Shown here one piece after another: positions 5,965-41,890 of a stretch of 41,890 nucleotides of DNA; position 1 is the stretch's first letter; every line of letters starts with the position of its first letter. This DNA comes from Methanobrevibacter millerae (GTDB lineage Archaea > Methanobacteriota > Methanobacteria > Methanobacteriales > Methanobacteriaceae): contig NZ_FMXB01000016.1 of the NCBI RefSeq assembly GCF_900103415.1, positions 1 through 41,890 of the forward strand, written 5' to 3'. The notes under the pieces are model-generated. The model saw only the letters and a list, made by a program, of their open reading frames with translations. It was not told the DNA's origin and ran no database searches. A program made the position numbers and the translations under genes.

Positions 5965-5997
5965 GAGGAATTAATTTTCCTCAACACTTATTTTTTT
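5965..5997 (+). terminator. Hairpin plus T-run after the UbiB-like gene
   Basis: The stem GAGGAA/TTCCTC has a 6-nt loop (5965-5982) and is followed by a seven-T run at 5991-5997. It begins 5 bp after the stop codon and ends just inside the converging TMEM175-like gene. Confidence 0.6.
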
Positions 5998-7150
5998 AAT
6001 TATCGAAATTGATTAATTTAATTTTCTTCATCATGAATATCCATGTCATTGCAATTGAAAGAAGACATGAGAGAATAATAATTGGCGGATAGAAATAGTA
6101 ACCGATAATTATGAAAATCACCGTAAAGCCAATGTTTATAATGTAGTTATTGTAATTCTGGAACGCCATCTGCAGGAATGAATTTGATTCATCTATCTTT
6201 TTCATCTGATATGTTGCGACAATGGAGCATACGTTAATTATAATGAAATCGATACCGTAGACGCACTGAGGCACGAATTCATTGAAATTCATGGCGACAT
6301 ATGTCGTCAAGTAAGGAATCAGTGAAAGGAAGAACAAACCCAGACATATGGCCCAGATTGACTTGTAATTGATCTTGTTGACGATGGAGAACAGGTTATA
6401 GGTAAAGTTCCACACATTAAAGCAGACTATGAAACTGATTGCATATGCTATGAATTCAAGTTTCAGTTCCAGTAGGGCGCCTAAGCTGCCGTTTACTGCA
6501 GTCGGGATTTCAAGCACGATAATCGTTATAATAATAGCTATAATCGCATCAATAAGAGCTTCAAACCTTTCAGTATCTTCAAATTCCTGGCCCTGCATTC
6601 TGTTATAGATTATGCTCAGAACCACTGATATTAAACACATCAGATAAATTCCCGGAACGTATATCGTGTAGGATATGACAAAACCTATCAATATAATGAT
6701 TAAAGGCCCGATGAAATGAATTTTCTTAATGTGGAGTTCCTTTAATTTCTCATTGGACTTGTTTGCTCCGAACACCACAACCACTGAAATGATATGGGAA
6801 ATGTTGGCGAAAAGTATAATCAGTCCAAATATCGTCTCGGCAGTTAATGAATACAGGTTCAGGGAAAGCCATGAGGCGAAATACGGGAAGAGCGTAAAGA
6901 GAAACATTGAAATCCCATATGAAATGAGAACCTTGTTGTTAATGTCATCGATATGCTGGAACAGCTTCTGATTTGTGTACCAGATATTGATGATAGAGAG
7001 AAATACGATGAAATAGGTTGTTATACTAAGCAAATTTGCAAATAGATCCCCCCAGCCGGGACCGAATGGCTGAGGAATCTTTAAAACCAGAATCGTTATA
7101 ACAATCGCCAGAACCGCATCATAAAATGTTTCAAACCTATTCGTATTCAT
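5996..7150 (-). CDS. Tandem TMEM175-type (DUF1211) channel protein
   Basis: The protein has 384 residues and about twelve membrane segments in two homologous halves. Each half opens with the DUF1211/TMEM175 signature: R-F-E-T-F-Y-D-A-V-L-A-I-V-I-T near residue 5 and R-F-E-A-L-I-D-A-I-I-A-I-I-I-T near residue 197. Single-repeat prokaryotic TMEM175 proteins form tetrameric potassium-selective channels, and the human protein has two repeats like this one, so a dimer is the likely assembly. The pore in this family is lined by hydrophobic residues of the first helix, not by a GYG filter. No clear Shine-Dalgarno precedes the ATG. A TATA-like TTTATTAA about 30 bp upstream suggests a near-leaderless transcript. 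The gene converges on the UbiB-like gene. Confidence 0.85.
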   Translation of the reverse strand: MNTNRFETFYDAVLAIVITILVLKIPQPFGPGWGDLFANLLSITTYFIVFLSIINIWYTNQKLFQHIDDINNKVLISYGISMFLFTLFPYFASWLSLNLYSLTAETIFGLIILFANISHIISVVVVFGANKSNEKLKELHIKKIHFIGPLIIILIGFVISYTIYVPGIYLMCLISVVLSIIYNRMQGQEFEDTERFEALIDAIIAIIITIIVLEIPTAVNGSLGALLELKLEFIAYAISFIVCFNVWNFTYNLFSIVNKINYKSIWAICLGLFFLSLIPYLTTYVAMNFNEFVPQCVYGIDFIIINVCSIVATYQMKKIDESNSFLQMAFQNYNNYIINIGFTVIFIIIGYYFYPPIIILSCLLSIAMTWIFMMKKIKLINFDN

Positions 7151-21384: not shown

Positions 21385-22377
21385 ATGAAATCCATATTTG
21401 ATAAATGTAAATTCGGTGACTTAATACTTAACAGCAGAATCATCAGAACAGGTTTATGGGAATCCCAACAAGATGATTTAAACGCAATTTATGATAGATA
21501 TGAAAAAATAGCCTCAAGCGGGGTTGGTCTAATTACTTCTGAGCTGTATTCAATATATCCTAATGATAAGTTTAGTGAACATTCCTTTAAAATGAGCAAT
21601 CGGAATTTCATGACTGTGGCAAGAAAATTGGCTGAAATTTGCCATAGTTATGGGGTTGCAATTTTAGGGCAAGTTGAATTCATCAAATTCAACCGTGGAA
21701 TTGACTTGGATATTTCAGTCAATGATTTAACTGTTGAAGATATTCGTAAAATACAGGCAGATATTATTTCTGCAGCTCAACAGTTGCAATTTGCAGGATT
21801 TGACGGGATTCAATTGTCAATAGGTAATAATTTTTACCTATCTAAATTCATCAATCCATATTATAATCAAAGGGAAGATAATTATGGTGGAAATTTATTT
21901 AATAGGTCACGTTTGGTTTTGGAATTGGTTAAAGTAATGAAAGATAACTTGGATTTACATATTTCCTGCAAAATCAACACTTTTGATGAGAGGAAAAATG
22001 GATTTAATTCAACTGAAAGTTTTAAAGCTTGTAAATTACTTGAAAAAGTTGGAGTTGACAGTCTTCAGTTAACACGACCTCTTTCACCTTTGTATTTCAC
22101 CAACAAAGTATCTGGAGAAGATGAACTAATAGATTATACTTCTAAACTAATAGATTCTGTTGACATTCCTGTCATTGTTGGTGGGGGATTTAATGATATG
22201 ATTCATATGAATGAATTGCTGAACAGTACTAATATTGAATTCATGTCAATGTACAGGCCTTTTGTTGCGAAGGAAGATTTTTTAAATAATTGGAAAATCA
22301 ATGGTGAAGGTAAATCCAAATGTTTGAAATGCAATAATTGTTATAGGACAAAGACCAGCACATGTTACCATTATTAG
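21385..22377 (+). CDS. Old-Yellow-Enzyme-like NADH:flavin oxidoreductase, variant 1
   Basis: The protein has 330 residues and is a TIM barrel of the OYE / NADH:flavin oxidoreductase family. Recognisable parts are NSRIIRTGLWESQ, the AGFDGIQL strand, NPYYNQREDNYGGN (flavin/phosphate region) and VGGGF with the RPFV loop. Two departures stand out. The usual H-G-A-H-G-Y-L substrate motif is S-I-G-N-N-F-Y-L, so both catalytic His are missing. The protein ends with C313-x2-C316-x2-C319-x7-C327, a compact Cys set like the [4Fe-4S] site of dienoyl-CoA-reductase-type members, but without their FAD/NAD domains. The substrate is unknown. There is an own operator and TATA directly upstream. Confidence 0.82.
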   Translation: MKSIFDKCKFGDLILNSRIIRTGLWESQQDDLNAIYDRYEKIASSGVGLITSELYSIYPNDKFSEHSFKMSNRNFMTVARKLAEICHSYGVAILGQVEFIKFNRGIDLDISVNDLTVEDIRKIQADIISAAQQLQFAGFDGIQLSIGNNFYLSKFINPYYNQREDNYGGNLFNRSRLVLELVKVMKDNLDLHISCKINTFDERKNGFNSTESFKACKLLEKVGVDSLQLTRPLSPLYFTNKVSGEDELIDYTSKLIDSVDIPVIVGGGFNDMIHMNELLNSTNIEFMSMYRPFVAKEDFLNNWKINGEGKSKCLKCNNCYRTKTSTCYHY

Positions 22378-22484: not shown

Positions 22485-23478
22485 ATGAAAAGTATATTTG
22501 ACAACACTAAATTCGGCAGTCTTGAGGTTTCCAGTCGTATAATAAGAAATGGGTTGTGGGAATCCCAAAACGATTCCAGTAAAAATCTGTCTCAGGATGT
22601 ATTTGACAGATATGAAAAATTATCAAAAAATAATGTTGGCGTAATAGTCTCCGAGTTGATTTCATTATATAGTCATGACAGATTCAGTGATTTTACTGAT
22701 TATATTAATGCTCCTTCATTCATACGGGACTTTAAAGAGGTTACCAGCATAGCCCATGAAAATAATACTCCAATTCTTGCCCAAATAGGCTTTGTCAACT
22801 GTAATGTAAATGGGAAACAGATGATGGAAGTCAATGATTTGACTTTGGAGGATATAAAGACAATTCAGGCGGATTATATTGTTGCAGCAAAAAAGATAAT
22901 GTTTGCAGGATTTGATGGAATAGAATTATGCATAGGCAATAATTTTTATTTATCACGTGTCATGAATCCTTTTGAAAATACACGCAGTGACAATTATGGT
23001 GGAAATACTTACAATCGTGAGAATGGTTTTGGAGATAATTAAATTGATTAAAAAAACAACAGGATTGCATGTTCACTGTAAGGTTAATTTGTATCAGGAT
23101 GAAGAGGATTCTCTGGAAATTTGCAAAATTCTTGCTGAAAACGGTGCAGATAGCTTACAGATTACTAAATTCTTATCTCCACAATACTTTAGAAAAGGTC
23201 AATCAAATCAAGACATGTTAGTGAGCTTTGCGGATAAAGTTGCAAAGAATGTTTCCATCCCCGTTGTTTTAGGTGGGGGAAGGTCAGATATGGATAAAAT
23301 CATCGAATTGTTAAATAATACTGATATTGACTTTATTTCAATGCAAAGACCCTTTGTAAAAGATCCTACTTTTTTAACTCAATGGAAAATTGATGGATAT
23401 GGCAAATCTGAATGTAAAACTTGTAACAACTGCTATTGGAAAAAACAGAGTGTTTGTTTGATAGAATATAGTGATTAA
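22485..23478 (+). pseudogene. OYE-like oxidoreductase, variant 2, frameshifted
   Basis: This is a paralogue of the gene just upstream and begins MKSIFDNTKFGSLEVSSRIIRNGLWESQ. The frame is open to 23042, but from about 23019 the homologous sequence continues in another frame (RMVLEIIKLIKKTTGLH...), to a stop at 23478. Compared with the paralogue (GGNLFNRSRLVLE), two bases are missing, or one is extra, at NR/RMVLE. Without this the protein would have about 331 residues. It shares the altered active-site motif (C-I-G-N-N-F-Y-L) and the C-terminal C-x2-C-x2-C-x7-C. The rest shows no decay, so a recent mutation, a sequencing error or programmed slippage are all possible. Operator and promoter are intact. 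Confidence 0.82.
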
Positions 23479-30328: not shown

Positions 30329-31045
30329 ATGAGTATAGGTGAAATTATTGGAGATGCAATAGCATATCCATTTAAAAATATTAAAGCATTAGTATTGTAT
30401 GTAATTCTAGCTATCATCGCCGCATTCATCGGTGGTGCAGCAGTACTCAGTCTTGCAGCTACATACACCTCAAAAGGTTTAGGTGCATATGCATTTGGTG
30501 GACTAAGTATTGTTGGAATCATTGTTTTTGTCCTTGTATTGTTATTGATTGACGGATACGGATTAGACATTGTAAAATATGGTATTGAAAGAAGGGCTGA
30601 CGGTCCTGGAATAGACATTGGAAGACAAATCTCAAACGCTGTTAAATTAATTGTTGTTAACATTGTTTACTACATTATTCCTGCAATTATCATTTTAGTT
30701 TTAGGTCTTTTCCTCAGAGACTGGATACTTACCATAATCAGCATAATCTTAATTATCGTATTTGCTTTAGCTAACTTTATGGCTAAATGTAGATTAGCAA
30801 AATCAGACAGTTTAGGTGACGCTTTAGCTATTGGAGAAGCTATGGGAGACATTTCCAGAGTAGGTATCGGTAAAATCATAGGTACTGTTATTGTTATTGC
30901 TATTATTTTAATAGTCGTTGCAATTATCATTGCATACTTATATAAACTGAACAGTACTATCGGCAGTGTTTTATTAGGTATTTTCTCAGTTTACTTTATA
31001 TTCTTCTACAATAGAGCTATTGGTTTATTATACTCTGACGCATAA
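30329..31045 (+). CDS. DUF4013 membrane protein
   Basis: The protein has 238 residues with about six membrane helices (roughly 18-45, 58-80, 113-135, 138-155, 186-208 and 211-230). It opens with MSIGEIIGDAIAYPFKNIKAL, the usual start of DUF4013 proteins, which are abundant in Methanobacteriales. GYGLDIVKYGIERRADGPGID between helices 2 and 3 is the conserved family loop. Function is unknown. A strong promoter and AAAGGTGA ribosome binding site suggest good expression. A T-rich tract after the stop (31060-31080) may end the transcript. Confidence 0.85.
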   Translation: MSIGEIIGDAIAYPFKNIKALVLYVILAIIAAFIGGAAVLSLAATYTSKGLGAYAFGGLSIVGIIVFVLVLLLIDGYGLDIVKYGIERRADGPGIDIGRQISNAVKLIVVNIVYYIIPAIIILVLGLFLRDWILTIISIILIIVFALANFMAKCRLAKSDSLGDALAIGEAMGDISRVGIGKIIGTVIVIAIILIVVAIIIAYLYKLNSTIGSVLLGIFSVYFIFFYNRAIGLLYSDA

Positions 31046-31159: not shown

Positions 31160-31939
31160 GTGGAAATATGGGCTGAAACGTTGATTCAATTTGCTATTAT
31201 AATTACTGTTTTTTTAGTTTTAACCTTTTTAGGCGGATTTATACATAAAATATTAAAAAATAAATATTTTAATTCCATAAATATGAATGAATTGTTGCCT
31301 GAAGATGAAGTTCATAGTTTAAAACAGATTTTTTATTTAATTTTGATGGCCTTGTGTATTGTAGATATTTTCTATTGTTTCGTAGGTTTTGAGATGGAAT
31401 ATAACTTTTATTTCGCGATATTTGATATTGCACTTTCACTATATTTCGCAATCATGTTAGACAAGAGTTCTGCAAAAAACAAGTTCATATTGCTCATATT
31501 AATTCCATTCGAGTCCATGTCATATGTGCCATTTGATCTTGGTTTAATACTTTGTTTGGAGATAATTCACATTATAGCTTTAGCATACTTTGCAAAAGTT
31601 AATTTCGACAAATTCATGGAATACACCAATTCAAACGGTCTGGGAATAACGATAATATTATTATTTGTAATAATTTTCAGTAGTTTTTTTATAACCCAAT
31701 ATGCAGAAGGCGTCACTGCTTTAGACTCACTTCTGATGATTTCTAATGAATTTACAGGTAACGGATATGGCGTTTTCGGTCATTCCATTTCAGGCAAACT
31801 CAATAGCTTATTGTTGGTTTGGGGAGGATATGTGATTTCCGGAGTAGGTGCCGCAACATTAACAGCAACAATTTTAAATAAACGTTTCAATAAGAGATTT
31901 GCCGAATTAGAGAAATTGATTGAAGGGGATGATGAATAA
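31160..31939 (+). CDS. 6TM ion-channel-like protein with TGNGYG filter
   Basis: The protein has 259 residues. About five hydrophobic helices are followed by a short re-entrant segment, TALDSLLMISNEF, then T-G-N-G-Y-G and a last helix LLLVWGGYVISGVGAATL with glycines. This order (S5, pore helix, filter, S6) is that of tetrameric potassium-type channels, and TGNGYG resembles the TVGYG filter. No charged S4 is seen. The C-terminus is acidic (LIEGDDE). The start GTG follows GGTGA with 6-nt spacing. The next gene, a paralogue, overlaps it by one base (TAATG). The channel assignment rests on my own alignment, so treat it as a strong suggestion. Confidence 0.6.
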   Translation: MEIWAETLIQFAIIITVFLVLTFLGGFIHKILKNKYFNSINMNELLPEDEVHSLKQIFYLILMALCIVDIFYCFVGFEMEYNFYFAIFDIALSLYFAIMLDKSSAKNKFILLILIPFESMSYVPFDLGLILCLEIIHIIALAYFAKVNFDKFMEYTNSNGLGITIILLFVIIFSSFFITQYAEGVTALDSLLMISNEFTGNGYGVFGHSISGKLNSLLLVWGGYVISGVGAATLTATILNKRFNKRFAELEKLIEGDDE

Positions 31940-32739
31940 TGGACGAGGCAATATTATTCTATATTTTACAGTTTTTGGTCGCAATAGCATTTTTTGCCCT
32001 TCTTTATTATATTGCCAAACGTATTGCTAATAGCGATAAATTAATGAACGGTTTTAAAAATTCAAGGTTTTTAAATCCTTTAGAATATCTGCCATCTGAA
32101 GAAATATCCTCTTTAAAACAAGTTTTTTTCCTGATAATGATATTGATTTTTGTTGTGATAATTCTGTATCTGATATTCGATTGGAATGACGGCCTATACT
32201 TCATATCCATTTTGGATACCATTATTTCATTATATCTTGCTGTCACCATGGGCAAGGATCAACTTAAAGATAAAATATTATTATTTTTATTAATTCCGTT
32301 TGGTTCCATAAATATAATATTGTTTGGGACTACAATCGGGTGGCACGATATATTGCATATTTTTGCATACTTATATTTCATCAAAGTTTACTATCGCAAA
32401 TTCGTGCAATATACTGAAAATCACGATTTGGGAATAACGATAATACTGTTATTTTCAATAATATTGGTTAGTTTTTTATTTACTATTCTGGTTGAAGAGG
32501 TTTCCCCTATGGATTCAATCACTATAGTTTCAAATGCATTTACAAGCAACAGTTTTGAAGTTTCAGGAAAGACAATGGCTGGGAAACTTGACTCATTATT
32601 ATTGGCATGGGGAGGATTTATTTTATCCGGTGTCGGTACAGCCACTTTAGCGGTTTCAATGGTAATGAGACGTGCCGATAATCAATTTGATAGACTTGAA
32701 GATTTAATTAAAAATAAGAAAAAAGAAAAAAAGGATTAA
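31939..32739 (+). CDS. Paralogous 6TM channel-like protein with degenerate filter
   Basis: The protein has 266 residues and aligns along its whole length with the preceding one (LPxEEISSLKQVFFL, NHDLGITIILLFSIILVSF, AGKLDSLLLAWGGFILSGVGTATL). In the pore, TGNGYG is replaced by TSNSFE, so the backbone site for potassium should not form. The C-terminus is strongly basic (KNKKKEKKD), opposite in charge to that of its partner. Translation is coupled through the TAATG overlap. A regulatory subunit in a mixed tetramer is my inference; an unrelated function is possible. Confidence 0.6.
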   Translation: MDEAILFYILQFLVAIAFFALLYYIAKRIANSDKLMNGFKNSRFLNPLEYLPSEEISSLKQVFFLIMILIFVVIILYLIFDWNDGLYFISILDTIISLYLAVTMGKDQLKDKILLFLLIPFGSINIILFGTTIGWHDILHIFAYLYFIKVYYRKFVQYTENHDLGITIILLFSIILVSFLFTILVEEVSPMDSITIVSNAFTSNSFEVSGKTMAGKLDSLLLAWGGFILSGVGTATLAVSMVMRRADNQFDRLEDLIKNKKKEKKD

Positions 32740-32748
32740 TTAATCCTT
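32731..32748. terminator. 18-bp palindrome at convergent gene ends
   Basis: AAGGATTAATTAATCCTT is a perfect palindrome covering the stop codons of the channel-like gene (plus strand) and the adhesin gene (minus strand). It is flanked by an A-rich run on the left. Confidence 0.45.
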
Positions 32749-35700
32749 TATTGTAATTGTGTTTGAAATTCTTAAGTCATCATACTCTGAAGTGATGATG
32801 TACTCGCCGGCCATTAGGTTAATGTTTAACCTTGCTATTCCGTTGGAATCTGTAGTGCGGTTATAGAACACACCATTGATATTGAAAGTTACTGAAACTC
32901 CAGCCAACGGATTACCCTGACCATCTAAGACAGTAACATTAAATGTTGAACCATCCTTGTAGGTCATTTCCAAATCCTCAGCTTCCAAAGTTGGCAATAC
33001 CGTGATGTTGTATGACATCTGAAGGCCCGTTAACGGATCTAAAGCCGTTAGGATGTACTCGCCAGGGTTCAGGTTGATGTTCAAGCGAGCAGTACCGTTT
33101 TCGTTGGTCACTCTGGTGTAAAATACGCCGTTGATGTTCATGGTAATGTTCTTGCCAGCCACAGGATTACCTTGACCGTCAATTAATGTAACGTAGAACT
33201 GAGAGGCGTTTCTGAAGTATTTAACCAGGTTTTCAGCAATTAACGTAGGCAATACAGTAATAGTATTTTCAACTGTCGTGCCGTTGAAAGTGGTTTTTAT
33301 CGTGTAGTTGCCCGGATTTAAGTTAATGGCTATTGAAGCAGTTCCGTTTTCATCACTGATTCTGTTATATGTTCCACCATTGATTTCAAACGTAACGGTT
33401 TGGTTGGCAACGCCGATATTAGCCTCAAATTTGGAATCGTTTTTATAGATTTTTACCAAATCCTGAGTGTAGATAGGTAAATCCACAGTGTAGACTTTTA
33501 AACAAGCCAATATTCCATCATCATATGCATCACCCCAATTTACACCATCAAGAGATATGAAAGAAAGATTTTGAGTATAATGTACTCTCTCATCAGCTAT
33601 TGCAATGAAAGGAATGGTATTTGAAAGTATTTTAGCTTTGAAAACATCCCCTTTTTTGATTGGTATGTAACTGTCTAATTTGATTGTGTGGTAACCGCAA
33701 TATGGAGACACACCCTCCTGAGTTAATTTCAATTCGTCGTTTACATAAATTTCAACCGTATAATTGACATTGGCCTTATTGAAGTATGTTCCAACAGCTG
33801 CAATCGCATCATTGTCTTGTGCTTCATACTGATTGAAATAACCCCTATTTCCTTCACCCTGCAGAAAAGAGCCTGCCCAGGCAATATCATATTGATAGTT
33901 CTTATTATACGGCACAGTATTCTCAAATATTATTGCAGTCGCATATTCAGTTAATGAACCGGATGCAACAAAGGATTTATCATAATATGAAACGTAGAGG
34001 TATCCATTGTCTCCCCAGCCAGATCCCCAGCTGTTTTTGATAATCCATGCGCCATCGCCCGGAGGCGTAATCAGGAAGTTTTCTTTCGGATAATTGTCAT
34101 CCCATCCAACAACTGAAACTTCATGATTTGATGGTGTGGACACATTAACGTACTGTGCATTGGTTTCTGGATTGAAGTAAGGATTTGCCTGGTCAAATGT
34201 GGACTGTCCGAAATAACCCACATCCAAAGCGCCATATTTGATTATAGCCTCTTTCATTTGTGTACCGTTAGGGACTTCATTAGGAACGAACATCACATCC
34301 TGAACATGAACATCCTGCAAAGTTGAGATATGCGGTGAAATCTTTCCCATTTCATCAAACGGATTTGCATCTTCTATGAATGCACCAAGCCAGCTTACCA
34401 GATAAGCTGCAGCAGCTGCATTATATGCTCCCTCATAAAGGTCTTTAGACCCCCAAACTGAATATTTTAGCAGGGCGTTTCGCATGCTGTTTTCTGAAAG
34501 ATCAGAGAGAATGCCTGTAGCTTTTAATAATGATGATTCTAAAGCACTTGTCATTCCGAATGTCCAGCAGGCACCGATCCATCCTTGATTTTTAACTGGA
34601 GACACCCATCCCCAATCACGTAAATCGAATCTGGACGGAAGAGTGTTAACATTAATGCTATTGTTAAGCAATGTCAATTGCAGACCCGGAGTACCCATTA
34701 TTGTTGCAAAATACGTATTGTTGGTTGAGATATTATCATCATTGATGAAAGTGTTGTTTTCGCTTATATTGGATTCTCCATCGAAAAAGGTGTAGATAGG
34801 ATTTATATTGTTTTCAAATAGGGAATTCTTAATGTCATATGATGTATCATATGCATAGACTGCGCTTCCTGCACTTGCAGTGTTATTGATAAAGTTAACA
34901 TGATTAATACTTATTGTACTCATGTCAAAGAATACTGCACCGCCATAGGTCGGATAATCCTGGTCATTCAATTTAACACCATTTGAAGTGAAATTACAAT
35001 TATTGATTTCAGTGTCTGTGTATGAAAGATATACTGCACCCCCATTGAAGGTGGCGTGACTGTTAATGAACTCGGAATTGCTTAGCAAAAATTTTCCGCC
35101 TAACTGGACATATGCTCCGCCAAATCCTGAATATGTGTCCCTAAATACGCTGTCAATTAATGTTACATTGCCATCTGATTCATCTTCCCCGATAATATCT
35201 GCAAAAACTGCTCCGCCATTGTTGGTGGAAGTAGTGTTTGTAAATTCACAGTTTTCAATATATAATTCACCACCATTTCTAAGACCTACAGCACCGGCAG
35301 TCAAATTGGCGTTTAAATTAATGAATTTGGAATTCCTGATTGTTGCTGATTTAACATTTTTAAAGAATAATGCAGCAGCATAAGAAGAGCTACTATTACT
35401 AAAAGTAACGTTTTCAACGTAGATTATGGAATTTTTAAAAGCAACAATTTGTGAATACCTATTGAAGACATTTGAACTTAAATCACTATTGTAAATGTTT
35501 AGTTTACCTTTCTCAACAAATATTGATGAACCTGCATCGGCATAATTGTCAATGAAAAGAGAATCATTACAGTTAAGGGTTACATCCCCGTAAAGCCCTA
35601 CAGCTCCACCTTGTTTAGATGCATAATTGTCAGAGAAAGTAACATTGTTTAATATTAATGATCCGGCAGCATAGATTGCTCCGCCTTTTTCAGCATTACC

Positions 35701-36060
35701 TCCGGTTAAAACTAAATTGCTTAATGTTACGTTGTTTGCAGTGATGTTGAATATTCTTGATTGGTTTTTTGCGTCAATTGTGCGGCCGTTACCGTTAAGG
35801 ACAAAATTATCCTTAGCAATAACAATTCCAGTATTGTTGTCAGTTGCATTGTTGAAGGCATAGTCCCTGGTTAAATCCAAAGTCATGCCCGCATTTTCTA
35901 TTTCATCGGCCAAATCTGTGAATGAAGCTTCATCCACCATATATATGTCTTCCTGAGCATCATTACTTATAATCTCCTCGGAAATGTCGTCTGCTGCACA
36001 AACAGCCCCCACCGATATGATTAAAATAAGCATGACGATTATAATCTTTAAGACCTTCAT
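32740..36060 (-). CDS. Adhesin-like protein with C1 (papain) peptidase domain
   Basis: The protein has 1106 residues and is secreted: MKVLKIIIVMLILIISVGAV then CAADD is a signal peptide. A right-handed beta-helix covers about 60-460 (repeats of GGAVF, NSEF, NCNFTSN). A papain-like peptidase follows (about 475-700): FDLRDWGWVSPVKNQGWIG, catalytic C498-W-T-F, His near 645 in NHEVSVVGWDD, Asn near 677 in KNSWGSGWGD. Next comes a lectin-like beta region (VPYNKNYQYD..., VEIYVNDELKLTQEGVSPY). Last are three Ig-like repeats of about 85 residues (each with FxVTLxDGQGNP and NING-x-F/Y-xR). No membrane anchor or sorting signal is visible at the end, so attachment to the cell is unexplained. Start ATG 36060 follows TGTGATA. 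It probably acts outside the cell in adhesion or cleavage of host or partner proteins. Confidence 0.9.
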   Translation of the reverse strand: MKVLKIIIVMLILIISVGAVCAADDISEEIISNDAQEDIYMVDEASFTDLADEIENAGMTLDLTRDYAFNNATDNNTGIVIAKDNFVLNGNGRTIDAKNQSRIFNITANNVTLSNLVLTGGNAEKGGAIYAAGSLILNNVTFSDNYASKQGGAVGLYGDVTLNCNDSLFIDNYADAGSSIFVEKGKLNIYNSDLSSNVFNRYSQIVAFKNSIIYVENVTFSNSSSSYAAALFFKNVKSATIRNSKFINLNANLTAGAVGLRNGGELYIENCEFTNTTSTNNGGAVFADIIGEDESDGNVTLIDSVFRDTYSGFGGAYVQLGGKFLLSNSEFINSHATFNGGAVYLSYTDTEINNCNFTSNGVKLNDQDYPTYGGAVFFDMSTISINHVNFINNTASAGSAVYAYDTSYDIKNSLFENNINPIYTFFDGESNISENNTFINDDNISTNNTYFATIMGTPGLQLTLLNNSINVNTLPSRFDLRDWGWVSPVKNQGWIGACWTFGMTSALESSLLKATGILSDLSENSMRNALLKYSVWGSKDLYEGAYNAAAAAYLVSWLGAFIEDANPFDEMGKISPHISTLQDVHVQDVMFVPNEVPNGTQMKEAIIKYGALDVGYFGQSTFDQANPYFNPETNAQYVNVSTPSNHEVSVVGWDDNYPKENFLITPPGDGAWIIKNSWGSGWGDNGYLYVSYYDKSFVASGSLTEYATAIIFENTVPYNKNYQYDIAWAGSFLQGEGNRGYFNQYEAQDNDAIAAVGTYFNKANVNYTVEIYVNDELKLTQEGVSPYCGYHTIKLDSYIPIKKGDVFKAKILSNTIPFIAIADERVHYTQNLSFISLDGVNWGDAYDDGILACLKVYTVDLPIYTQDLVKIYKNDSKFEANIGVANQTVTFEINGGTYNRISDENGTASIAINLNPGNYTIKTTFNGTTVENTITVLPTLIAENLVKYFRNASQFYVTLIDGQGNPVAGKNITMNINGVFYTRVTNENGTARLNINLNPGEYILTALDPLTGLQMSYNITVLPTLEAEDLEMTYKDGSTFNVTVLDGQGNPLAGVSVTFNINGVFYNRTTDSNGIARLNINLMAGEYIITSEYDDLRISNTITIKD

Positions 36061-36175
36061 AATTATCACAATATAAATTTATGTAAAAAATCAGTATTTA
36101 AGTATTTATATTTGGATTTCAGTGATTAATATGTATTAAATTATTAAAAAAAGAAAAAGAAAGGATTAAAATTAA

Positions 36176-39100
36176 TTAACCCTTGATTGTTATTGTATTT
36201 GAAATTTTTAAGTCATCATACTCGGAAGTAATGATGTACTCGCCAGCCATCAGGTTGATGTTTAATCTGGCTATTCCGTTGGAATCTGTTGTACGGTTGT
36301 AGAACACACCGTTGATGTTGAAAGTTACTGAAACTCCAGCCAATGGATTGCCTTGACCATCCAGAACGGTTACGTTGAATGTTGAGCCGTCCTTGTAGTT
36401 CATTTCCAAATCATCAGCTTCCAATATGGATAAAACCGTGATGTTATAGGACATCTGAAGACCAGTTAAAGGATCAATAGCTGTCAGGATGTACTCGCCA
36501 GGGTTCAGGTTGATGTTCAAGCGAGCAGTACCGTTTTCATTGGTCACTCTGGTGTAGAACACACCGTTGATGTTCATGGTAACGTTTTGTCCTGCTACAG
36601 GATTACCTTGACCATCAATTAATGTAACGTAGAACTGTGAAGCGTTCCTGAAGTATTTAACCAGATTGTCAGCAATTAATGTAGGCAATACAGTAATGCT
36701 ATTTTCAACAGTCGTGCCGTTGAATGTAGTTTTTATCGTGTATTCGCCAGGGTTTAAGTTAATAGCTATTCTGGCAGTTCCGTTTTCATCACTGGTTCTG
36801 TTATAGGTTCCGCCATTAACCTCAAACGTAACGGTTTGGTTGGCAACACCGATATTAGCCTCAAATTTGGAATCGTTTTTATAGATTTTTACCAGATCTT
36901 CAGTGTAGAACGGTATAGCAACAGTGTAGACTTTCAGAGATGCGATATAACCTAAGTCATAAGCGTCTTCCCATGTTTCCCCATCCTTACAGACATATGA
37001 CATGCCATTAGTGAAATGGACTCTAGTATCATCCAAGAGGATGTATGGCACCCAATTTGAAGTTATTTTTGCTTTGAAGATATCTCCTGCTTTGATTGGA
37101 ATGTACTCATCCAGTTTGATTGTGTGGTAACCCAGATATGGAGATACTCCTTCCTGAGTTAATTTTAACACATCATTTACATAGATTTCAACGGTATAAT
37201 TGATACCGCTTCCATTGAAGTATGTTCCGACAGCTGCAATTGCATCGGTTTCCAGTGCTTCAAAGACATTCATATAACTTATAGTTCCATTTCCCGCTTC
37301 AGAATTGGAAATCCATACCAAATCATATTGATAATTTTTATTGTACGGAACGGTATTTTCAATTATCGGTACAGCAGCATAGTTTGCAATCATTCCAGGA
37401 GTATATGCGAGGAGTGACTGGTCATAATATGAAACATACATGCAACCGTGGTCTCCGAAATCAGGACCCCAGCTGTTTTTAATAATCCATGCGCCATCTC
37501 CAGGAGGAGTAACCAGGAATTTTTCTTTTGGGAAATTGTCGTCCCATCCAATAATGGCAACTTCATGGTTTGCACTTTCAGGCACATTTACATATTGTGC
37601 ATATGTTTCTTCATTATAATAAGGGGATTCCTCATCATATGAGGATTGTCCGAAATAAGACACGTCCAGAGAACCGTATTTCAAAACAGCTTTTTTAATT
37701 TCTGTACCGTTAGGGATTTCATTATTAGGTACGAATATGAGGTCTTGAACATGGATGTTTGGACCTGTTAAGTTTACTGCTGTAATTTTACCGAGTTCGT
37801 CATAGGTATCTGCATCATATGGGATTGCTCCAAGCCAGCTTAACAGGTAACTTACGGAAGCAAGATTGTATCCTCCTTCAAATACTTCGTAAATACCGTA
37901 AGGTGAATATTTCATCACGAGTTTCATGTTATTCATTGAAGTATCATATTTAACATCTGTAGCTTTCAGCAATGCTGATTCCAGGCTACCCGTCATTCCA
38001 AATGTCCAGCAAGCATTCATCCATCCCTGGTCTCTGACTGTTGACACCCATCCCCAGTCACGTAAATCAAATTTGGATGGAAGAGCAGCAACATTAATGG
38101 TATTGTTATGCAATGTTAATTCAATGCCTTCTCCAACCACTACCGTCAGATAATACGTATTGTTGGTTGAGATGTCGTCATTTACAAGAGTATTGTTTTC
38201 TAAACTGCATTCCTTATCGAAAACAGAATAAATGGCATTTGTATTGTTTTCAAATAATGTGTTCTTAATGTTATATGACGTATCGTATGCATATATTGCA
38301 TTACCGTCGGCTGCGAGGTTATTTATAAATCTGGAATCGGTTATGTTTAATGTACTGATATCACTGTATATTGCTCCACCGTAGGTTGGATAATCATCAA
38401 TCAATTCAACGCCATCTGAATCGAAAGTACAATTGCTGATTGCGCTGTCTACAAATGAAAGATAAATTGCTCCTCCATAATATTTGGCGTGAGTGTTTAT
38501 GAATTGGGTATTGTTTAGCCAGAATTTTCCTGCCAATTGGATATATGCTCCACCAAATTCGGAATATGTGTCCTTAAATACGCTGTCAAGTATGGTCACA
38601 TTACCTTCGGAAAGAGCTGATCCTGCGATGTCCACATAAACGGCTCCCGCATTTTTAGAGGAGGTAGTGTTTATGAATTCACAATTTTCAATATAGAGTT
38701 CACCGCCATCCCTAAGGCTCACTGCACCTGCACTCTTATTGGCTTTCAGATTATTAAATTTGGAATTCAATATTCTGGCTTTAGCACCCGTAAGATATAC
38801 TGCCGGTGAATAGTCTGTAATAATATTTTCAAAAGTAGCATTATCTATATAAACAGATGAACCGGTGTGACCGTAAATTTGACCTGCTTTGGCAAATCTT
38901 TGTGAAGTTAAGTATGCATTGTAAAGGTCCAGCTCACCTTTCTGAACAAATATTGCGCCTCTCTCACCGGCATTGTCAATGAATTTTGAATTGTTACAGA
39001 CAAGAGTTGAATCCCCGTAAAGCCCTATGGCTCCACCGATACTTCCATTATTGTTAATGAAAGTAAAATTGTCAAATATTAATGATGAACCGGTGGCATA

Positions 39101-41890
39101 TATCGCTCCGCCTTTTTGAGCATTACCGTTGATTAAAACCAAATCCTTTAATGTAACGTTGTTTGCTGTAATGTTGAATATTCTTGATAGGTTTTTTGCG
39201 TCAAGTATGTGGCCGTTACCGTTAAGGACAAAATTATCCTTGTTGATTAAAACTCCAGTATTATTATCGGTTTCATTGTAGAATGAATAATCGTCGTCCA
39301 GAGTCAGATATTGTCCTGCCGCATTAATGAGTCTTTCCAATTCCGTAAATGTATTGTTTTTGTTTGAATCCGCAACAGTGTAGACTTTTAGACATACAAT
39401 ATAACCTGAGTCATAGGTATCTTTCATAGATTCTCCGTCGAAGGATATGAATGAGAGATTTTGAGTGTAATGTGGCCTGACATCAGTTAAGTTAACGGTT
39501 GGTGCGACATTTGAAGTTATTGCTGCTTTGAAAACATCACCTTCTTTAATTGGTATGTATTCATTTAACTTGATTGTGTGGTAACCGTAGTATGGTGACA
39601 CCCCGGTTTGAGTCAGTTTCAATTCGTCGTTTACATAAATTTCAACCGTATAATCGTTGCCTTCCTTATTGAAGTATGTTCCGACAGCCGCAATCAAATC
39701 ATCGTCCAATGCTTCAAATACATTCATATAACTTACATTTTGATTGCCGGATTTGAACTCTGTTCCCCACATGAGACTATATTGATAGTTTTTATTGTAT
39801 GGTTCGGTATTTTCAATAATTATTGAAGTGGCATAATTTGACACGTCTTTAGAATTCATTAATGTCTTATCGTAATATGAAACATAGAGGAATCCATTGT
39901 CTCCCCATTCTGTACTATAACTGTTTTTTACAATCCATGCGCCGTTGCCCGGAGGCGTGATTAGGAAGTTGCTTGCATTATAATTATCATCCCATCCTAC
40001 AATTGAAACATCATGATTTGGACCTTCAGGCGTGTCGACATATTGTGCATGGGTTTCTGGATTATAATAAGGATTTACTTCATCATATGTTGATTGACCG
40101 AAAAAGGACACATCTATGGAACCGTATTTCATGATTGCCAATTTGAGCTGTGTGCCGTTTGGTATCTCAATGTTCGGTGTAAACATCACATCCTGAACAT
40201 GGACATCATTCAGGGTTGTGATTACAGGTGAAATTTTTCCAACTTCATCATAGGTATCCGCATCCTGTGTGAATGCTCCAAGCCAGCTTAACAAATAAGC
40301 TGTGGAAAGAATGTTGGCTCCAAATTCTCCTGTTCCGCCGCAACCGTAAATTGAATATTGGATCATGGTATTCTGCATGTTATTTTCTGAAAAATCAGTT
40401 GTGATGTTTGCAGCTTTCAGTAATGCTGATTCCAAGGTACCAATCATTCCGAATGTCCAGCAGGCACCCATCCAACCCTGATTTTTAACGGATGAAACCC
40501 ATCCATAATCACGTAAATCAAATTTATCTGGAATGTCAGTGATATTGATGGTATTGTTAAGCAATACCAATTGCATGCCTTGTCCAATTATTATTGTTTC
40601 ATAATATGTGTTGTTTAGTGAGAGATTACCGTCATTAACATAATCATTGTTTTCTAAAACAGATTCTCCATCGAAAACAGTGTAGATAGGGTTCGTATTG
40701 TTTTCAAATGTTGAATTTCTGATGTTGTATGATGTATCGTATGCATATATTGCGCTTCCTGCACTTGCCCCATTATTGAAAAATTTAGAATCATTTATAT
40801 TTAGTGTGCTCTTATCAGAGAATATTGCACCGCCATATGTCAGATATCCTTCAATAATGCTGACTCCATTTGAATCAAAGGTACAATTATTGATTTCAGT
40901 ATTTGTATATGAAAGGTAAATCACACCTCCATTATATTCAGCATGAGAGTTTATGAATTCAGTATTCTTTAACACGAAATCTCCGCTCAATTGGACATAT
41001 GCTCCACCAAATTCAGAATAGGTGTCCTTAAATTTGGTACCGATTATGGTCACATTACCTGCATATTCCTTATCTCCAGCAACATCAGCAAAAATGGCAC
41101 CTCCATTTTTAGAAGAAGTAACATTTTCGAATTCACAATTTTCAATATATATTTCTCCGCCGGATTTAGTAGCAATTGCACCTGCAGTAATATTGGCTTT
41201 CAAATCAATGAATTTGGAATTGACTATTGAAGCTTTTTTAGCATATTTAATATATATCGCCGGTGCATAAGATGCAGTAATATTGGTAAAAGTAGTGTTT
41301 TCTATATAAACTTCAGCATGTGAAAAGTCAATTTGGGAACCTTTAGCGGAATTTTTTGAGGTAAAACTTGAATTGTAAAGTTTCACTTCACTACTCTCAG
41401 CAACAATGGATGAACCACTTTCGGCAAAATTATCAATAAATATACAATTAGAAATAATAAATGCACCTTCCCTAATTCCTAAAGCTCCCCCCTCTTTGTT
41501 TGCATGATTGCTAATGAAGGTAACATTATTTAATGTTAGTGTTCCAACAGCACGTATTCCACCACAATTTGCGGAATTACCGTTGATTAAAATCAAATCA
41601 TTTAATGTTATGTTATTTCCGTTAATGGTGAATAGTCTTGATTGATTGTTTCCATCTATTGTGCGGCCGTTACCGTTAAGGACAAAATTATCCTTAGCAA
41701 TAACAATACCATTACTGTCATCAGTCGCATTGTTGAAGGCATAGTCCTTGGTTAAATCCAAAGTCGTGCCAGTATTATTTATTTCATCAGTCAAATCGGT
41801 GAATGAAGCTTCATCCACCATATACATGTCTTCCTGACCGTCATCACTTATAATCTCATCGGAAATGTCGTCTGCTGCGCAGACTGCCCC
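36176..41890 (-). CDS. Adhesin-like protein with two C1 peptidase modules (5' end beyond window)
   Basis: There are 1904 codons in the window, and the frame is open at the edge. The first residues, GAVCAADDISDEI, match the end of the neighbour's signal peptide, so only about 20 residues are missing. The order is beta-helix, C1 peptidase, lectin-like region, then the same three again, then three Ig-like repeats. Peptidase 1 has its Cys near base 40,460, His in PNHDVSIVGWDD and Asn in KNSYS. Peptidase 2 has its Cys near base 38,010, His in ANHEVAIIGWDD and Asn in KNSWG. Both seem complete. Helix 2 restarts abruptly with FTELERLINAAGQYLTLDDD, the point of duplication. The Ig-like part is nearly identical to that of the gene downstream. 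It ends TITIKG without an anchor. Confidence 0.9.
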   Translation of the reverse strand, partial: GAVCAADDISDEIISDDGQEDMYMVDEASFTDLTDEINNTGTTLDLTKDYAFNNATDDSNGIVIAKDNFVLNGNGRTIDGNNQSRLFTINGNNITLNDLILINGNSANCGGIRAVGTLTLNNVTFISNHANKEGGALGIREGAFIISNCIFIDNFAESGSSIVAESSEVKLYNSSFTSKNSAKGSQIDFSHAEVYIENTTFTNITASYAPAIYIKYAKKASIVNSKFIDLKANITAGAIATKSGGEIYIENCEFENVTSSKNGGAIFADVAGDKEYAGNVTIIGTKFKDTYSEFGGAYVQLSGDFVLKNTEFINSHAEYNGGVIYLSYTNTEINNCTFDSNGVSIIEGYLTYGGAIFSDKSTLNINDSKFFNNGASAGSAIYAYDTSYNIRNSTFENNTNPIYTVFDGESVLENNDYVNDGNLSLNNTYYETIIIGQGMQLVLLNNTINITDIPDKFDLRDYGWVSSVKNQGWMGACWTFGMIGTLESALLKAANITTDFSENNMQNTMIQYSIYGCGGTGEFGANILSTAYLLSWLGAFTQDADTYDEVGKISPVITTLNDVHVQDVMFTPNIEIPNGTQLKLAIMKYGSIDVSFFGQSTYDEVNPYYNPETHAQYVDTPEGPNHDVSIVGWDDNYNASNFLITPPGNGAWIVKNSYSTEWGDNGFLYVSYYDKTLMNSKDVSNYATSIIIENTEPYNKNYQYSLMWGTEFKSGNQNVSYMNVFEALDDDLIAAVGTYFNKEGNDYTVEIYVNDELKLTQTGVSPYYGYHTIKLNEYIPIKEGDVFKAAITSNVAPTVNLTDVRPHYTQNLSFISFDGESMKDTYDSGYIVCLKVYTVADSNKNNTFTELERLINAAGQYLTLDDDYSFYNETDNNTGVLINKDNFVLNGNGHILDAKNLSRIFNITANNVTLKDLVLINGNAQKGGAIYATGSSLIFDNFTFINNNGSIGGAIGLYGDSTLVCNNSKFIDNAGERGAIFVQKGELDLYNAYLTSQRFAKAGQIYGHTGSSVYIDNATFENIITDYSPAVYLTGAKARILNSKFNNLKANKSAGAVSLRDGGELYIENCEFINTTSSKNAGAVYVDIAGSALSEGNVTILDSVFKDTYSEFGGAYIQLAGKFWLNNTQFINTHAKYYGGAIYLSFVDSAISNCTFDSDGVELIDDYPTYGGAIYSDISTLNITDSRFINNLAADGNAIYAYDTSYNIKNTLFENNTNAIYSVFDKECSLENNTLVNDDISTNNTYYLTVVVGEGIELTLHNNTINVAALPSKFDLRDWGWVSTVRDQGWMNACWTFGMTGSLESALLKATDVKYDTSMNNMKLVMKYSPYGIYEVFEGGYNLASVSYLLSWLGAIPYDADTYDELGKITAVNLTGPNIHVQDLIFVPNNEIPNGTEIKKAVLKYGSLDVSYFGQSSYDEESPYYNEETYAQYVNVPESANHEVAIIGWDDNFPKEKFLVTPPGDGAWIIKNSWGPDFGDHGCMYVSYYDQSLLAYTPGMIANYAAVPIIENTVPYNKNYQYDLVWISNSEAGNGTISYMNVFEALETDAIAAVGTYFNGSGINYTVEIYVNDVLKLTQEGVSPYLGYHTIKLDEYIPIKAGDIFKAKITSNWVPYILLDDTRVHFTNGMSYVCKDGETWEDAYDLGYIASLKVYTVAIPFYTEDLVKIYKNDSKFEANIGVANQTVTFEVNGGTYNRTSDENGTARIAINLNPGEYTIKTTFNGTTVENSITVLPTLIADNLVKYFRNASQFYVTLIDGQGNPVAGQNVTMNINGVFYTRVTNENGTARLNINLNPGEYILTAIDPLTGLQMSYNITVLSILEADDLEMNYKDGSTFNVTVLDGQGNPLAGVSVTFNINGVFYNRTTDSNGIARLNINLMAGEYIITSEYDDLKISNTITIKG

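Follow-up and report, generated by a model that had tools for sequence, protein, structure and literature searches.

How are two adjacent archaeal genes to be read when their products resemble each other and a tetrameric cation channel but carry different residues in the selectivity filter? The pair lies in a 41,890-nucleotide stretch of Methanobrevibacter millerae DNA (contig NZ_FMXB01000016.1, positions 1 to 41,890; hereafter the window). The original prediction, made from the letters of the DNA, took the products for a conducting and a modulatory subunit of one mixed tetramer. The features of the two genes, called A and B, are as follows.

31160-31939, forward strand: gene A, first subunit, 259 residues (open reading frame with GTG start at 31160).
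31718-31753, forward strand: pore helix of A, residues 187-198, ending N-E-F (DSSP of the AF2 model).
31754-31771, forward strand: filter place of A, TGNGYG, residues 199-204 (alignment with the relatives L122, L123 and L125; class table).
31787-31885, forward strand: inner (S6) helix of A, residues 210-242 (AF2 model; invariant columns).
31916-31936, forward strand: acidic tail of A, LIEGDDE (net charge of the last 12 residues).
31937-31941, forward strand: TAATG stop/start overlap of A and B (read directly from the sequence).
31939-32739, forward strand: gene B, second subunit, 266 residues (open reading frame with ATG start at 31939).
32506-32544, forward strand: pore helix of B, residues 190-202 (AF2 model).
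32542-32559, forward strand: filter place of B, TSNSFE, residues 202-207 (class table, 23/23 of class IB).
32575-32733, forward strand: inner helix of B, continued as a long C-terminal helix, residues 213-265 (AF2 model).
32701-32736, forward strand: basic tail of B, DLIKNKKKEKKD (net charge of the last 12 residues).

The last base of the gene A stop codon (31937-31939) is the first base of the gene B ATG, an arrangement that makes translational coupling of the two genes likely. The products can be aligned along their whole length, with 42% identity and 63% positives over 252 residues (BLASTP, E = 3e-57), a value that rules out a chance likeness. The original prediction was accurate in this kinship, in the overlapping codons, in both filter strings and in the opposite charge of the C-termini, that of B being the basic KNKKKEKKD.

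AF2 models built from 90 family sequences give A (pLDDT 86, pTM 0.78) and B (pLDDT 90.4, pTM 0.84) the same architecture of seven predicted membrane helices and a pore loop. The helices of A are predicted at residues 2-37, 48-78, 82-99, 105-125 (broken), 131-155 and 159-183 (AF2/DSSP), and are followed by the pore helix, a loop at 199-209 and the inner helix, which starts just ahead of an invariant GK (212-213); the layout of B corresponds, up to its pore and inner helices. The re-entrant pore loop, whose absence would have told against the original prediction, is present in both models, as part of a module of S5, pore helix, re-entrant loop and S6. Fold matches of the models in the PDB are channels of the K+/NaK type (probability 1.00), and comparison of the pore modules with those of KcsA and NaK gives TM-scores, normalised by target length, of about 0.63-0.73. 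The best fold matches of B are NaK structures, and the whole chain of A matches Kv, HCN and SthK with low TM-scores and modest E-values; the E-values of the fold search are weak, the best being 3.6e-3 and 0.14. The sequence speaks against a voltage-gated channel of Kv type, as the S4-equivalent helix holds few charges, among them two mostly conserved lysines (146 and 151), and shows neither regularly spaced Arg/Lys nor an arginine ladder.

Sequence searches of Pfam, NCBIfam and the PDB gave no match above noise for A or B, and none of A, B and the six further members scanned showed the Ion_trans_2 domain (PF07885), even with the threshold relaxed to E = 10. As these libraries offer no direct assignment, homology was derived from distant relatives and from folds. 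In whole-genome searches the family profile finds proteins in sister genera (E 4e-10 to 2e-7) that themselves match PF07885 (E 4e-13 to 4e-15) and whose filter reads TTTGYGD or TTTGFGD. In the background comparison it scores canonical channels at up to 47 bits, against 3.2 bits for the best non-channel membrane ORF; two top "background" matches, at 12 and 4 bits, proved on reading to be channels. A profile search against ion-channel families thus leaves Pfam and NCBIfam silent, but the family's own profile does match potassium channels with TTTGYGD. These results support A and B as P-loop channel-like proteins, and both appear, by sequence homology and predicted fold, to belong to the P-loop (tetrameric) cation channel superfamily.

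Three canonical Ion_trans_2 channels of the Methanobacteriaceae (L122, L123 and L125) are homologous to the family from about S1 to S6, share the NGLG stretch before S5 and have their filter in register, TGNGYG of A lying against their TTTGYG. They differ in reading TTTGYGD or TTTGFGD where the A/B family has T[SG]N[GS][YF]x without the aspartate position; they are single genes where seen, and an extra N-terminal helix occurs only in the A/B family. Few parts of the family are conserved as strongly as the filter place (consensus TSNGY[ATS]); N196, F198, T199, N201, G207, G212 and K213 are invariant throughout, and TSNGYA aligns with TTTGYG through a one-column deletion at the aspartate. Such single-glycine filters might conceivably be related to the pore loops of the Trk/Ktr type.

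The source genome (2.72 Mb in 48 contigs) contains six family members: two pairs, the first in the window and the second on contig 30, and two single genes whose filters read FTSNGYTVLG and FTSNGYAVLG. The second pair follows the same A/B scheme, with FTGNGYSVFG in A2, FTSNSFDASG in B2, and acidic and basic tails. Three matches to canonical PF07885 channels are found as well, so that the A/B family adds to the ordinary channels of this genome and does not substitute for them. A family match occurs in 90 of 139 Methanobacteriaceae genomes, a few of the weakest being canonical relatives, and in 88 of 152 genomes of the phylum, all of them within the Methanobacteriaceae. Members outside the Methanobacteriaceae were found neither in these 152 genomes nor among the best 80 loci of a scan of 84,980 species by peptide patterns, which distant members may escape; the named loci among those 80 belong to Methanobrevibacter and Methanosphaera, many from rumen or gut. 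The search for conserved neighbours around the 80 loci found no strongly linked partner gene, and the gene neighbourhood gives no clue to function. A DUF4013 membrane protein is encoded directly upstream of the window pair (30329-31045, forward strand), and a DUF4013-like gene is near 11 of the 80 related loci, six of them with pairs.

The 216 loci were reduced to 154 distinct members. Single genes account for the most members (70), followed by 23 IA, 23 IB, 18 IIA and 18 IIB, and the remaining two are third copies that lie upstream of a pair; these counts include near-duplicate genomes and become 51 single, 13 IA, 14 IB, 17 IIA and 18 IIB at <80% identity. In the family tree, A falls into class IA and B into class IB. 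The filter residues are fixed by class across the 154 members (numbering of A). Position 197 is E or Q in 23/23 IA, residues near absent elsewhere, where most members have A or S; position 200 is G in 23/23 IA and S in all other classes; N at 201 is invariant; position 202 is S in 23/23 IB and G in all other classes; position 204 is mainly A, T or S, with D or E in 23/23 IB; and position 206 is F in 23/23 IA, S or A in IB and L in nearly all others. In TSNSFE of B, a serine replaces the conserved filter glycine and an acidic residue follows next but one.

The claim that only A keeps a potassium-type filter needs revision. A does read TGNGYG, but the second-glycine position is S in 10, G in 7, A in 5 and T in 1 of the 23 IA members, and a glycine there is seen only in IA, never in the single genes. 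The invariant part of the IA filter is no more than FT-x-N-G-[YF], and every subunit of the single genes and type II pairs reads TSNGY followed by A, T, S or V. Because the single genes themselves have no canonical filter, A is not "the normal one" of the two. The potassium-selective signature (TxGYG, GFG or GLG, with both glycines and normally an Asp thereafter) is a feature neither of the family, nor of class IA, nor of B, and A should not be labelled potassium-selective. The fixation of both filters within their classes rather suggests that both subunits line the pore.

We inspected 40 pairs at the junction, 22 of them type I. FTGNG[YF] in the first gene goes with FTSNS[FY][DE] in the second in 22/22 type I pairs, 21 of which have the one-base overlap of stop and ATG; type II junctions are variable, either overlapping or abutting or nearly so. 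Over the last 12 residues, the tails of the first products have a net charge of -2 to -7 (mean about -4) and those of the second 0 to +5 (mean about +2); the A tail is the more acidic in 40/40 pairs, the second product being basic or neutral, and single-copy tails are intermediate (mean -1.7). The second-type gene always follows a first-type gene, its lone case being at a contig edge, and the unpaired IA (L023) and IB (L201) genes each lie at a contig end. The original prediction had staked itself on homologues that do not stand singly with unrelated filter residues, and it is not refuted here: contig edge aside, second-type homologues are always paired, and SNS[FY][DE] is conserved in the window's subtype. 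Throughout the 40 pairs, which appear to have a single origin, the paralogues are encoded together and each keeps conserved features of its own. Evolutionary distances of A and B correlate at r = 0.91, against a shuffled maximum of 0.31, a correlation that linked genes in one species tree could produce by themselves. The median dN/dS is 0.23 for IB and 0.16 for IA, which indicates purifying selection on B. Intact reading frames, the fixed motif and dN/dS rule out B as a pseudogene. Some genomes have a third, divergent member just upstream of the pair (L039, 2117-2914; L030, 2402-3199), with the tail LLKEYKK, the locus being a three-gene cluster.

The order of events can be read from the tree, which was computed by a quick search with the filter columns excluded and SH-aLRT support. 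The second genes all fall into one clade (100) and the first genes all into another (99), which also takes in one lone gene; support is 93 for IA and 98 for IB. One clade per gene position means, in the simplest view, a single origin of pairing. Both type II subunits keep TSNGY, so pairing preceded the filter difference and does not imply a division into conducting and modulatory subunits. The filter difference would most simply have arisen once, after pairing and in both partners. The lone gene of the A clade (L184, genome G007, contig 30) is sister to IA and has the ancestral TSNGYA filter and a tail that is not acidic; either it has lost its partner or it preserves the condition that preceded the filter change. 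Pairing, the tail rule and the filter change of type I each seem to have had a single origin, so that the counts of 40 and 22 reflect one event that has been kept, not independent ones.

Based on these observations, we propose that A and B probably build the pore of a single P-loop cation channel, an obligate heterotetramer in which they would most likely alternate as A-B-A-B. The opposite tails, the co-divergence and the overlapping junction together favour a mixed oligomer, whose assembly, stoichiometry, conduction and selectivity we infer. Each subunit would contribute a six-helix core, made of a voltage-sensor-like S1-S4 bundle with an S4 that has not the usual arginines, S5, the pore loop and S6, flanked by the extra helix at the N-terminus and by another helix at the C-terminus. 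Coupling through TAATG would yield similar amounts of A and B, made side by side, and below the pore the tails, acidic in A and basic in B, would promote mixed contacts over contacts between like subunits. The filter may be regarded as a remodelled potassium-channel filter, in which TTTGYGD became TSNGYA with deletion of the aspartate position. In type I the filter would then be asymmetric: one layer would lack a side chain in A, where S gave way to G, and B would have exchanged the filter glycine for S and acquired a carboxylate close to the outer mouth, where this acid could shape cation preference by analogy with CNG channels. The mixed charges of the single-copy tail would have been split between A and B, and the filter glycine and side chains jointly redistributed. 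The likely result would be a cation pore that is weakly selective or non-classical and works only with both subunits. On the fuller picture, an obligate heterotetramer with redistributed filter roles, a two-fold symmetric filter bearing two carboxylates and a selectivity unlike that of canonical potassium channels, our judgement is evenly poised.

What remains of the original prediction is the mixed oligomer; its roles of conductor and modulator find no more than partial support and are not implied by the type II pairs, which keep TSNGY in both subunits. The view that A forms a pore selective for potassium, which B as a silent subunit would dilute or gate, as Kv silent subunits do with Kv2, strikes us as unlikely. 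It could appeal to the TGNGYG that A can read, to the missing filter glycine of B in 23/23 and to the silent-subunit heteromers well known in eukaryotes (PMC12113274). Yet the second glycine is found in just 7/23 A orthologues, the TSNGY followed by A, T, S or V of single genes and type II pairs marks the A filter as not that of a canonical K+ channel, and the B filter is fixed and under purifying selection, unlike a relaxed segment that does not line the pore.

Two separate homotetrameric channels from tandem duplicates that are merely co-transcribed would be quite unlikely. Tandem duplicates are common, single-copy members are presumably homomers and type II genes share one filter, but opposite tail charges in 40/40 pairs and a joint filter change are hard to explain if the subunits make no contact, and the second-type gene is never alone away from a contig edge, nor would separate channels account for the near-strict one-base overlap of type I. 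The single-glycine filters across the family leave conduction itself less than certain, and channel-derived proteins that no longer conduct, such as sensors or scaffolds, would agree with the lack of canonical TxGYGD throughout a family that keeps one filter glycine, with the few S4 charges and with the silence of all profile libraries. We give this reading only a slight chance, since the filter place is highly conserved, as expected if ions are still handled, and conduction is known from channels whose filters are altered: TbIRK, with GGYVG, is even K+ selective (PMC5429665), and NaKTs is non-selective with a proline-rich filter (PMC5052707). By this analogy, an altered filter alone would be no bar to conduction by the A/B tetramer that we favour.

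The window holds another kind of non-canonical potassium channel, a TMEM175-type protein with two repeats (5996-7150, reverse strand; PF06736, E = 1e-34). Beyond the pair, at 32740-36069 and 36176-41827 (reverse strand), lie two very large adhesin-like proteins, each of which combines Ig-like and lectin-like domains with a papain-family peptidase; in the larger one the peptidase and lectin-like modules are repeated twice. An NADH:flavin oxidoreductase-like gene (22485-23478, forward strand) is split into two overlapping ORFs by an apparent frameshift and adjoins an intact paralogue at 21385-22377.

In the A/B genes, which belong to gut and rumen methanogens, single-gene, same-filter-pair and different-filter-pair stages coexist in living relatives, so that the steps from homomer to heteromer can be tested. 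The TSNGYA filter, which has a single glycine and lacks the aspartate position, also probes which parts of the potassium signature conduction needs.

To our knowledge, homotetramers make up the overwhelming majority of the tetrameric channels so far studied in prokaryotes, and we found no prokaryotic channel pair of the A/B kind in the open-access literature searched; a two-subunit design is known mainly from animals and plants. The bacterial non-selective channels NaK and NaKTs, which are homotetramers with two membrane helices, share with A and B a prokaryotic setting, the pore fold and non-canonical filters, but differ in filter sequence and have no partner gene. The NaK filter is TVGDGN and non-selective (PMC9822992). 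Kv silent subunits (PMC12113274) are not functional alone and modify a related subunit in a mixed tetramer, and the assembly proposed here would likewise join a non-autonomous subunit to a related one; they are, however, eukaryotic and voltage-gated, whereas in A/B the filter itself has diverged, and in both partners. The best-studied parallel is the vertebrate CNG channel, in which paralogous pore subunits bring different filters, TIGE from CNGA and TIGG from CNGB, into one shared filter whose ring of acids sets divalent block, and whose B subunits have no function alone (PMC10761061). That channel is eukaryotic, assembles 3:1 and bears cyclic-nucleotide domains; the A/B pair would place the acid on the second subunit, and its two paralogues come from a single overlapping gene pair with no ligand domain.
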